Shown here one piece after another: positions 47,063 to 51,682 of a stretch of DNA of 64,000 nucleotides. How positions within the stretch are numbered: position 1 is the stretch's first letter; each line of letters starts with the position of its first letter. Below the pieces are notes generated by a model, which did no database searches, was not told the DNA's origin, and worked only from the letters and a program-made list of their open reading frames with translations. Both the position numbers and the translations under genes were made by a program. Source of the stretch: Streptomyces viridochromogenes DSM 40736 (lineage in GTDB: Bacteria; Actinomycetota; Actinomycetes; Streptomycetales; Streptomycetaceae); contig NZ_GG657757.1 of NCBI RefSeq assembly GCF_000158955.1, positions 2,825,898-2,889,897 of the forward strand. The letters run 5' to 3'.

Positions 47063-47176
47063 ATGCGCACCTACGAGCGTCCGACGCTGACTGCGGTCGG
47101 CTCCTTCCGCAAGACCGGTCTGGGCTTCAAGGACGGACCGGAACGTTTCTGGTTCTTCCGGAGGAAGTTCTTCTGA
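47063..47176 (+). CDS. Lasso peptide precursor
   Basis: A 37-residue precursor. The leader MRTYERPTLTAVGSFRKTG has the YxxPxL...GxF pattern recognised by RRE proteins (Tyr4, Pro7, Leu9, Gly13, Phe15) and Thr18 at the conserved -2 position. The core is LGFKDGPERFWFFRRKFF (18 residues). Its Leu1 amine can close on Glu8 to give an 8-residue ring, with a bulky aromatic and basic tail FWFFRRKFF able to lock the thread. It has no Cys. AGGAGG (47048-47053) precedes the ATG by 9 bp. The full maturation set follows. Confidence 0.93.
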   Translation: MRTYERPTLTAVGSFRKTGLGFKDGPERFWFFRRKFF

Positions 47177-47238: not shown

Positions 47239-47262
47239 CCCCGCGTGCAGGAAGGGACCGGC

Positions 47263-49104
47263 ATGGTCGGTTTTCCCGATTCCGGCGAGGGGCCGGGCTG
47301 GTTCGTCATCCTTCCGGACTGTGCTTCGGCGGCCCCGGTGGCCGCCGCGCTTCGCACCCGGAACATCCAGGAGGTCGGCCACCCGTCCGGACGTCCCTGG
47401 CTGCTCGGCCGCTGGTCCCCCGGTGCCATGGCCCTCGGGGAGGCGGGCCGGACGAAGATCGTGATCGTCGGTGAACACGCCGTCACCGCCGACCGGCTCG
47501 GCCCGGCGGCGGGCCGGATCGACACGATCGCCGAGCTGGACGGTCTGACCCGTGACCTGGCCGGGAGTTCTCACCTGATCGCCTCGGTCGCCGGACGTGT
47601 GCGGGTCCAGGGAAGCATCAGCGGCTTCCGGCGGGTGTTCCACGCCAGGGTCGGCGGCGCCACCGTGGCCGCGGACCGGGCCGACGTCCTGGCCGCCCTG
47701 CTCGGCGCGGAGGTCGACGAGCAGCGGCTGGCAGTGCGCCTGCTGAACCCGTACGCGCCGCACCCGCTGGCCGGCGAGCCGGTGTGGTGTGAGGTGAACG
47801 CCCTGGGGATGGGCCGCTACCTGGCACTCGACGCGGACGGCCGGGGACGGCCCGTCGCGTGGTGGACGCCTCCCGAGCCGGTGGCGCCGATGGCCGAGGG
47901 CGCGCCGGCCTTTCGGCAGGCGCTCTCGACGGCGGTGGAGGTCCGTGTCCGGGGCCGGGACGTGGTGAGCTGCGATCTGGGCGGGCTGGACTCGACCTCG
48001 GTGTGCGCGCTGGCCGCCCGCGGCACGGCGAAGGTCGTCGCCTACACCGCCGACGGCCTCGATCCCCTGTGCGACGACGTGACCTGGGCTCGCAGGACGG
48101 TCGCGGGACTGGACGACGTCGAACACCACACCCTCGCCGGAGACCGGTTGCCGATGGTCTTCGAGGGCCTTCGGGACGTGGCCGAGCGCTTCGACGAGCC
48201 GTGCCCGGCGATGATGCATCCCAGCCGCTGTCTGGCCGTTCCACGGTTGGCCGCGGAACACGGTTCCCGCATGCACCTGACGGGCTTCGGCGGGGACGAG
48301 TTGCTCGCCGGCTCGCCTGCGCATCTGCACACGCTGATACGGAGCCACCCCCGGGTCGCGTGGCAGCGCCTGCGTGGCTTCGCCGCCCAGGGCCCCTGGC
48401 CGTACCGGGAAACGCTCCGGCAGTTGTGGGACGACAGTTCCTACCGCTCGTGGCTCACCCGGGCCGGCGACCAGCTCACCGCCGTACCGCCTCCCTTGCA
48501 GACGCCCGCGCTGGACTGGGGGACGCCACCACGGCTCCCCCCATGGACGACACCGGACGCCGTCGAAACCGTACGAGAGCTGATCCGCACTGCGGCACGT
48601 ACCACCGAGCCCCTGGCGGAAGGGCGCGGACAGCACGTCGAGCTGGACGCCCTGGGGAACAACTCCCGCATGGTCCGGCAGGTGAGCCAGCTGGCCGGCC
48701 GCACCGGGCTCGTCTTCGCCGCCCCCTACTACGACGACCGCGTGATCGAGGCGGGCCTGGCGGTGCGGCCGCAGGACCGGATCACCCCCTGGCGGTACAA
48801 GCCGCTCATCGTCGAGGCGATGCGCGGCATCGTGCCCGCCGAGAGCCTGACCCGCCACACCAAGGACGAGGGTTCGTACGAGGCGGAGGCCGGGATGCGG
48901 GAGCAGCGTGCCGAGTTGCTGGCCCTGTGCGAGGACTCCCGGCTGGCCCGGGCGGGTCTGATCGACGCGAAGGTGTTGCACGAGACGTGCAGCCGGCCGC
49001 TGCCCCCGACTCTGCCGTTCGACGCGCTGTACCAGACCGTGGTGTGCGAGCTGTGGCTGCGCACGCTGGAGCTGGAGAGGGCCGATGGCATTCAAGCTGC
49101 GTGA
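47263..49104 (+). CDS. Lasso cyclase (asparagine-synthetase-like)
   Basis: A 613-residue enzyme that activates the core Glu8 (or Asp) side chain as an acyl adenylate and forms the isopeptide bond with the core N-terminus. The C-terminal half is the AsnB synthetase domain with a PP-loop DLGGLDSTS (about 238-246), GGDELLAGSP (about 343-352) and YDDRVIEAGL. The N-terminal glutaminase-like half lacks a leading catalytic Cys, as in other lasso cyclases. AGGAAGG at 47249-47255 decides the ATG at 47263 over the GTG at 47245. Confidence 0.93.
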   Translation: MVGFPDSGEGPGWFVILPDCASAAPVAAALRTRNIQEVGHPSGRPWLLGRWSPGAMALGEAGRTKIVIVGEHAVTADRLGPAAGRIDTIAELDGLTRDLAGSSHLIASVAGRVRVQGSISGFRRVFHARVGGATVAADRADVLAALLGAEVDEQRLAVRLLNPYAPHPLAGEPVWCEVNALGMGRYLALDADGRGRPVAWWTPPEPVAPMAEGAPAFRQALSTAVEVRVRGRDVVSCDLGGLDSTSVCALAARGTAKVVAYTADGLDPLCDDVTWARRTVAGLDDVEHHTLAGDRLPMVFEGLRDVAERFDEPCPAMMHPSRCLAVPRLAAEHGSRMHLTGFGGDELLAGSPAHLHTLIRSHPRVAWQRLRGFAAQGPWPYRETLRQLWDDSSYRSWLTRAGDQLTAVPPPLQTPALDWGTPPRLPPWTTPDAVETVRELIRTAARTTEPLAEGRGQHVELDALGNNSRMVRQVSQLAGRTGLVFAAPYYDDRVIEAGLAVRPQDRITPWRYKPLIVEAMRGIVPAESLTRHTKDEGSYEAEAGMREQRAELLALCEDSRLARAGLIDAKVLHETCSRPLPPTLPFDALYQTVVCELWLRTLELERADGIQAA

Positions 49105-49411
49105 GGGTGTGTTCACGGCCGAGACGGACTACGGAATCGCGCTCCTCGACGAGGACGGCGACCAGTACTGGACGCTCAATCCCAGCGCCGCCGTCGCCTT
49201 GCGGACCCTGCTGGACGGCGGTACCGAAGCCGAGGCCGCGCAAAGGCTCACCGAGGAGTACGCGGTGGACGTCGGCACCGCGCACCGGGACGTCCGGGAG
49301 CTGGTCGGCGAACTGCGCTCGGCGGGCCTGGGCGAAGACGACCCCGGCCGCAGGGCCCACGGCCGATGGCCGCGCGGACGCGGCCGGCGGGCGGGGAGGA
49401 AGCGGCGATGA
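49085..49411 (+). CDS. Lasso RRE protein (PqqD-like, B1)
   Basis: A 108-residue protein with the winged-helix PqqD fold over about residues 1-82: FTAETDYGIALLDEDGDQYW, LNPSAAVALRTLL and DVGTAHRDVRELVGEL. It binds the leader's YxxPxL motif and delivers the precursor to the peptidase and cyclase. The last 25 residues are a basic Arg/Gly tail. It overlaps the cyclase gene by 20 bp and the next gene by ATGA. Confidence 0.9.
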   Translation: MAFKLREGVFTAETDYGIALLDEDGDQYWTLNPSAAVALRTLLDGGTEAEAAQRLTEEYAVDVGTAHRDVRELVGELRSAGLGEDDPGRRAHGRWPRGRGRRAGRKRR

Positions 49412-49881
49412 CCTCACCGGAGGTGATCTTCCACGACCCGCACTCGGTGCCCCTGCGACGCCGGATCCCGGTCCGGCTCGCCGTGGGCGCCGCGCGGTTG
49501 CTGGCCCGTCGGCGCCCCCGGCGCATCAGGGCCGTGCTGGAGTGGCTGCGCCGGGGCGCCCGTCCGGCCACCTTCGAGCAGACCCGGGCCGCCCGGGACT
49601 CCGTGGTCGCGGTCAGCCTGGCGTGCGGGGGCCGGGAAGGGTGTCTGCCCCGCTCCCTGGCCACGATCCTGCTGTGCCGCCTGCACGGCCAGTGGCCGAC
49701 CTGGTGCGTAGGCACGCGGCGTCTGCCGCCCTTCGGTGCGCACGCCTGGGTGGAGGCGGAGGGGGTGCCGGTGGGAGAGAACCACCCGCCCGACTACTTC
49801 CGACCCCTCTTCACCGTGCCCTGCGCACCTGGTCCCGTCAGCCGCGAGGCCGTGATCCATGAAGCCCGAAACGACCGGTGA
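49408..49881 (+). CDS. Lasso leader peptidase (B2, transglutaminase-like)
   Basis: A 157-residue cysteine protease that cuts the leader after Gly19. The catalytic Cys lies in REGCLPRSL (Cys79) and the His in FGAHAWVEAEG (His112), with an acidic residue expected soon after. The N-terminal arm is Arg-rich. GGGGAGGA at 49393-49400 decides the ATG at 49408 rather than an in-frame ATG at 49366. It overlaps the transporter gene by 23 bp. Confidence 0.92.
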   Translation: MTSPEVIFHDPHSVPLRRRIPVRLAVGAARLLARRRPRRIRAVLEWLRRGARPATFEQTRAARDSVVAVSLACGGREGCLPRSLATILLCRLHGQWPTWCVGTRRLPPFGAHAWVEAEGVPVGENHPPDYFRPLFTVPCAPGPVSREAVIHEARNDR

Positions 49882-51682
49882 GACGGGCGAGCGGAGCCGG
49901 ACCGCCCCACTGGACTTCCTGCGCCTGCTGCACGGCCACCGGCGGTGGGTGGCCCTCGCCGTCCTGCTGACGCTGGGGGCCTCGGCTCTGAGCCTGGCCC
50001 AGCCGCTGCTGGTCAAGCAGGTGATCGAGTCGACCTCGTCCGGCAGCGCGATCGGGCCGGCCCTGGTGCTTTTGGTCGTCCTCTTCCTCGCCCAGGCTCT
50101 GGTGCAGGGCCTCGCCCAGTTCGTCCTGGCCCGCACGGGCGAAGGGATCGTCCTGGGGATCCGGCTCGGCCTGATCAAGCACGTGCTGCGACTGCCCATG
50201 GCCGTCTACGACCGCCACCGCATCGGCGATCTGATCTCGCGCACCAGCACCGACAGCACCACCTTGCGGCTGCTCGTCGCGGAGGGCTTCACCGAAGCGA
50301 TCACCGGTGCCATCGGGCTGATCGGCATCGTGGTGCTGATGATCTGGCTCGACTGGCTGATGTTCCTCGTCGTGCTGGGCATGGTGGCGATCGCCACCGT
50401 GATCGTCGTGTCGGTGCTGCACGGCATCGAGGTGGCGTCGCTCTTGACGCAGCGGGCGACGGGCGCGATGACCGCTGATCTGGAACGCGCCCTCGGCGCC
50501 ATCCGCACCGTCCGGGCCAGCCGCGCCGAGCAGCGCGAGACCGACCGCATCGCGGGTGGCGCCAGATCGGCCTACGTGGGAAGCGTGCGGATGGCGAAGC
50601 TGGACGCCGTGGTGGCACCGGCGATCCAACTGGCCGTCAAGGGATCGTTCATCGTCGTCCTGCTCATCGGCGGCATGCGGGTCGCCGACCGGCAGGGGTC
50701 GATCGCCGACCTCGCCGCCTTCCTGCTCTACATGATCTACCTGGTGGAGCCGATCGGCATGCTGTTCCAGTCGCTCAGCACCATGGAGCAGGGCGTGGGG
50801 GCGTACCGCAGGGTCACGGAAGTGCTCGAACTGCCCACGGAGCAGGACGCCGTGTCAGCGGCCGGGGCTCCGGCGCGCGGCCCGGCGGATGGCGACGGCG
50901 GGCCACGAGCGCCCGCGCTGGAGTTCCGCGACGTGTGGTTCGGCTACGATCCCCGGCGCCCCGTCCTGCGCGGCGTGACCTTCGAGGCGCCGGAGCACTC
51001 CCATGTCGCCCTGATCGGCAGTTCGGGGGTCGGAAAGTCCACCGTGTTCGCGCTGATCGAGCGGTTCTACGACCCGGATCGCGGCCACATCCTCTTCGGC
51101 GGCGCTGACATACAGGAGATCGGCCGGGCCGCGCACCGGGCCCGGGTCGGTCTGGTGGAACAGCACGCCCCCGTGCTGTACGGCACGCTGCGGGAGAACC
51201 TGACCTACGCCGTCCCGGACGCCGGGCCGCAGGAGCTGGACCGGGTGGTCGAGCTGGCACACCTCACGGATCTGATCGCCCGTCTGCCGGAGGGTCTGGA
51301 GACCGACGCCGGGGAGCACGGCATGGCGCTCTCCGGCGGTGAGCGCCAGCGGATCGCGATCGCCAGGGCTCTGCTGGCCCGGCCGCGCCTTCTCCTGCTG
51401 GACGAGCCGACCGCCCATCTGGACGCGGTCAGCGAAGCGGCGCTGCGCAGATCGATGCGGGAGACCGCGCGGGAGTGCACGCTGCTCGTGATCGCGCACC
51501 GCATGTCGACCATTCGCGCCGCGGACCTGATCGTCGTCCTCGACGCCGGCCGAGTCGTCGCCACGGGCAGCCACGGGGAGCTCCTCGACAGCAGTGAGCA
51601 CTACAGGTCGCTCATCCGCGCACAGCAGACAGGGGATCTCCGCGTGCCGCGCACAGCGGGCCTGAAGGGCGGAGCCGGGTGA
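49859..51682 (+). CDS. Lasso peptide ABC exporter (fused permease-ATPase)
   Basis: A 607-residue half-transporter. Six membrane helices span about residues 30-310. The ATPase has Walker A GSSGVGKST (about 389-397), signature LSGGERQRI and Walker B LLLLDEPTAHLD, followed by the H-loop IAHRMST. It forms a homodimer that exports the finished lasso peptide and probably gives self-immunity. Last gene of the cluster, convergent with era with only 16 bp between stops. Confidence 0.93.
   Translation: MKPETTGETGERSRTAPLDFLRLLHGHRRWVALAVLLTLGASALSLAQPLLVKQVIESTSSGSAIGPALVLLVVLFLAQALVQGLAQFVLARTGEGIVLGIRLGLIKHVLRLPMAVYDRHRIGDLISRTSTDSTTLRLLVAEGFTEAITGAIGLIGIVVLMIWLDWLMFLVVLGMVAIATVIVVSVLHGIEVASLLTQRATGAMTADLERALGAIRTVRASRAEQRETDRIAGGARSAYVGSVRMAKLDAVVAPAIQLAVKGSFIVVLLIGGMRVADRQGSIADLAAFLLYMIYLVEPIGMLFQSLSTMEQGVGAYRRVTEVLELPTEQDAVSAAGAPARGPADGDGGPRAPALEFRDVWFGYDPRRPVLRGVTFEAPEHSHVALIGSSGVGKSTVFALIERFYDPDRGHILFGGADIQEIGRAAHRARVGLVEQHAPVLYGTLRENLTYAVPDAGPQELDRVVELAHLTDLIARLPEGLETDAGEHGMALSGGERQRIAIARALLARPRLLLLDEPTAHLDAVSEAALRRSMRETARECTLLVIAHRMSTIRAADLIVVLDAGRVVATGSHGELLDSSEHYRSLIRAQQTGDLRVPRTAGLKGGAG

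Follow-up and report, generated by a model that had tools for sequence, protein, structure and literature searches.

The window, a 64,000-nucleotide stretch of the Streptomyces viridochromogenes DSM 40736 genome, very likely (probability of about 0.9) carries a class II lasso peptide cluster of the A-C-B1-B2-D type, whose precursor would be cut between Thr-Gly and Leu1, closed into a Leu1-Glu8 ring round its tail, and exported by D. The product is well supported as a lasso peptide of a known kind and probably so far uncharacterised: a new member of the lagmysin/citrulassin-type class II peptides. Its ring type is already known, and the tail is its exceptional part.

Precursor and biosynthetic genes

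The precursor gene A (47063-47176, + strand) follows an AGGAGG ribosome-binding site and encodes 37 residues (MRTYERPTLTAVGSFRKTGLGFKDGPERFWFFRRKFF), split into a leader of 19 (MRTYERPTLTAVGSFRKTG, 47063-47119) and a core of 18 (LGFKDGPERFWFFRRKFF, 47120-47173). As in class II precursors, the leader carries the YxxPxLxxxGxF motif (as in PMC6856326) with a Thr at -2, and the core has no cysteine. With 20.3 bits, the leader scores above the cut-off (19) of NF033521, the lasso leader model of NCBIfam. The sequence-only reading had placed the core exactly, since the translation gives 18 codons from Leu in the C-terminal half of the precursor. A chance ORF at 47063-47176 is ruled out by the leader match, the four partner genes and the homologues with the same neighbors; the identical precursor type with the same neighboring genes is also present in other Streptomyces species.

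The canonical C-B1-B2-D genes lie downstream on the same strand (47263-51682), so that a dedicated cyclase, B1, and B2 adjoin the precursor, as in class II systems. The gene order A-C-B1-B2-D is also found in related species. C (47263-49104, with an alternative GTG start at 47245) is an asparagine synthetase-like lasso cyclase (PF00733, 1.6e-36), which scores 242.7 bits against the nearest NCBIfam cyclase family, the albusnodin/ikarugamycin family NF033561, and thus falls below its cut-off of 300. B1 (49085-49411; PF05402) is a PqqD-like leader-binding protein and B2 (49411-49881; PF13471) a transglutaminase-like leader peptidase retaining the conserved Cys and His blocks; both exceed the cut-offs of their families (NF033530, 107.5 bits, and NF033537, 125.1 bits, respectively). 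D (49859-51682) is an ABC exporter with membrane and ATPase domains (PF00664 and PF00005), conserved in homologous clusters. By this gene content, B1 would bind the leader, B2 would cut after Gly19, with Thr at -2, and C would link the Leu1 amino group with the Glu8 side chain, forming an eight-residue ring round the tail. The bulky Phe, Trp, and Arg residues would hold the tail in place, and D would export the product.

Three genes upstream of A, encoding a SAM methyltransferase, an XRE regulator, and an ATPase, were considered as tailoring or cluster genes and left out because they are not consistently beside A in relatives: one related locus has none of the three (L015) and another only the ATPase (L017). 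The PP-loop of the cyclase reads DL-GGLDST (47974-47997, residues 238-245), without the Ser of SGGLDS. The same variant is common to this cyclase clade and to the cyclases adjoining lagmysin-type precursors; the citrulassin cyclase of the same genome keeps SGGLDS. The Ser-less loop is probably functional, since lagmysin, which is associated with such cyclases, is a listed lasso peptide.

Relatives and closest characterized peptides

Five other precursors turned up among 392 genomes of the genus, and scanning genome contigs with the cyclase gave eleven loci, each with a precursor adjoining the cyclase. Two profile searches (392 and 293 genomes) enlarged the related set to 50 distinct precursors; in an order-level sample, profile matches were found in only one of nine genera. 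The closest group, with hosts Streptomyces coeruleorubidus, S. scabichelini, NRRL B-1140, S. violaceus, and G140, shares the core consensus [LI]GFxxGPER[FY]WFFRR[KR]FF. The members of a sister set have LGxxxGPE[RK] in common but carry an aliphatic/basic tail ending in FSL, and the wider set takes in cores of the lagmysin type and GPKD cores, followed by the citrulassins. In the cyclase tree, the window cluster nests with other GPER clusters (support of 0.90), and the aromatic-tail subgroup has a support of 1.0. The position of this subgroup inside the GPER clade, among relatives with aliphatic tails, indicates that the aromatic/basic tail is probably a derived feature.

Among characterized peptides, leepeptin from Streptomyces leeuwenhoekii C34 (PMC6856326) resembles the window peptide in its TG-Leu1 cut, 18-residue core, Leu1-Glu8 ring, and aromatic tail. 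However, this tail is acidic (EINWHFDYWT), giving a net charge of about -3 against +3 for the window peptide, and the cores have no clear sequence kinship. Lagmysin (LAGQGSPDLLGGHSLL) has a closely similar leader (YERPTLT..G.F..TG) and an acid at position 8 after TG, and the cyclases beside lagmysin-type precursors are 47 to 48% identical to that of the window, with the same PP-loop one residue short; its ring acid is Asp8 rather than Glu8, and its Gly/Leu-rich tail lacks aromatics. Citrulassins (LLGLAGNDRLVLSKN and relatives) share TG-Leu1, the eight-residue ring, and Arg9 right after the ring acid, but have Asp8, a short LxLSKN tail, and a normal SGGLDS in the cyclase; the cyclase of the citrulassin cluster in the same genome is 45% identical to that of the window. 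Two further peptides resemble the window peptide in the tail. RES-701-1 (GNWHGTAPDWFFNYYW) has a strongly aromatic tail without basic residues and a Gly1-Asp9 ring, while lariocidin (SKKSKPGDGKFGRGVKRG) is strongly cationic, with a 40% basic tail, but has a single aromatic residue and a Ser1-Asp8 ring.

Searching the open literature for the core, the cores of its relatives, and one named host gave no published description, although the core may already be listed in the prediction tables of large mining studies. The cluster adds a conserved lasso family with the core [LI]GFxxGPER[FY]WFFRR[KR]FF and a tail chemistry outside the published range compared. The relatives with aliphatic tails (e.g., LGTNRGPERVIPLRFSL) form a natural series on the same ring type, and their comparison would reveal the role of the tail.

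Cleavage register, ring, and tail

The predicted ring, LGFKDGPE (Leu1 to Glu8, 47120-47143), has its acid at position 8, within the positions 7 to 9 used in class II cores. An Asp or Glu is found eight residues after TG in 44 of the 50 distinct related precursors, the exceptions being one copy with an apparent frameshift and five GPPD sequences, whose acid comes at position 10 or 11. Lagmysin-type precursors align in the same register and adjoin cyclases of the 47 to 48% identity given above. In leepeptin, where EETG is followed by the core LYGVRNDEEINWHFDYWT, the cut between TG and L and the Leu1-Glu8 ring were proven by mass spectrometry and NMR (PMC6856326), and an eight-residue Leu1-Asp8 ring was demonstrated for citrulassin N (PMC12971885). 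Homology and the leepeptin precedent thus bear out the earlier proposal that Thr18 stands two residues before the initial Leu and that Glu8 closes an eight-residue ring, and the predicted register Thr(-2)-Gly(-1)-Leu1 with closure on Glu8 is strongly supported. The same proposal called this ring unusual, which does not hold, since leepeptin and citrulassin N have the same ring type.

The tail after Glu8 (RFWFFRRKFF, 47144-47173) consists of ten residues, six aromatic and four basic, all of them Phe, Trp, Arg, or Lys. The sequence-only reading was right about its exceptional aromatic and basic composition and about three basic residues in FWFFRRKFF; it counted five aromatics in this segment where there are six (five Phe and one Trp), and it left out Arg9, the tenth tail residue and fourth basic one. 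When compared with 50 cores of a published table (PMC12427821) plus leepeptin, with a simple rule on position to identify the ring acids, at the cost of possible errors in single values, only the window peptide and its relative had a tail entirely aromatic or basic (10/10, versus none of the 51 published cores), which confirms that the composition is unusual. RES-701-1 has a higher aromatic fraction (6/7) and zero basic residues, and lariocidin has the same basic fraction with one aromatic. The computed net charge of the mature peptide is about +3 for the window and +4 for the relative. Across six alleles the tail is nearly invariant (Phe to Tyr in one, Lys for Arg in another) despite several silent changes alongside, which suggests, in a sample too small for a rate test, that it may be kept by selection.

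Closure on Asp5 or another core start is highly improbable. Glu8 is invariant in the 11 closest precursors, whereas position 5 is Asp in the window precursor only and Ala or Arg in the ten others, which settles the choice of Glu8 over Asp5, as the earlier reading had it, as far as sequence allows. Starts at Gly19 (nine-residue ring to the Glu) or at Gly21 (the cut one residue later, for which the seven-residue ring had been correctly worked out) would keep the ring within seven to nine residues, and Gly opens more of the cores in the published list than any other residue. However, leepeptin and citrulassin-type peptides are proven cases of cleavage at TG-L, the Gly-first cores first predicted by the discoverers of leepeptin were refuted by mass (PMC6856326), and the cores of all aligned precursors that have their acid at position 8 begin with Leu, Ile, Val, or Ala. 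A tail of bulky residues only has no characterized precedent in the list compared, so that threading could differ or fail. A branched-cyclic, unthreaded or partly threaded product, improbable in our view, would follow if ten residues of Phe, Trp, Arg, or Lys were too bulky for the ring. Against this, the class II lasso peptide RES-701-1 carries the tail WFFNYYW, the tail is believed to fold before the ring closes (PMC9266682), and the near-invariance of the tail suggests a fit to the cyclase. Standard single-chain structure models are not known to reproduce the isopeptide bond or threaded fold reliably.

The strain's own genome (C1) also has a citrulassin-type cluster with the precursor LLGRHGNDRLILSKN (L013, around 6847) and a distant peptidylarginine deiminase (PAD) gene (L014; PF03068, 393.7 bits), at ~1.007 Mb and ~4.633 Mb. 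An additional citrullination of Arg9 by this enzyme is conceivable, if unlikely: the PAD gene and a citrulassin-type precursor occur together in the genome, and the citrulassin PAD acts from outside its cluster on an Arg9 just after the ring acid, the place that Arg9 occupies here. However, the citrulassin cluster accounts for the PAD gene, Arg9 is replaced by Lys in two close relatives (L011 and L019), and the residues around it differ from those of citrulassins, the core being LGFKDGPER and not the LLxxxGNDR with citrulline 9 that defines them.

Predicted product and variant relatives

The predicted mature peptide has a computed monoisotopic mass of 2361.2323 Da, obtained with a routine that reproduces the published 2338.0443 Da of leepeptin. 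It would most likely be a cationic-aromatic agent against neighboring bacteria, which is the weakest step of this reading. Membrane or cell-entry activity, inferred from tail composition alone, is plausible; the several steric plugs and the membrane-active character put forward in the sequence-only reading are putative. More tentatively, the peptide may act on membranes or cross them with no need of a dedicated importer, its knotted ring being joined to an antimicrobial motif rich in Arg and Trp.

The five GPPD precursors (L033, L036, L037, L062, and L063, near position 1500-1590) take the forms TG-MALKRxGPPD, TG-KPFRKGKGPPD, TG-HFRKGKGPPD, and TG-GRVKRTGPPD, their only core acid lying 10 or 11 residues after TG. 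All adjoin a cyclase, and these cyclases constitute one clade (support of 0.997). Either they would form a ring of 10 to 11 residues, for a published range of 7 to 9, or the cut would fall two to three residues later, placing Thr at -4/-5. In G140, the cluster (L008, 5587-7791) is decayed: precursor and exporter are intact, the cyclase is reduced to its first ~56 residues, and B1 and B2 are missing, so that at least one lineage can do without the product. In another genome (G553, L059), a precursor of the same family shows an apparent frameshift in the core (LAPTEGPNGSSV), and the core part of the profile matches another frame.
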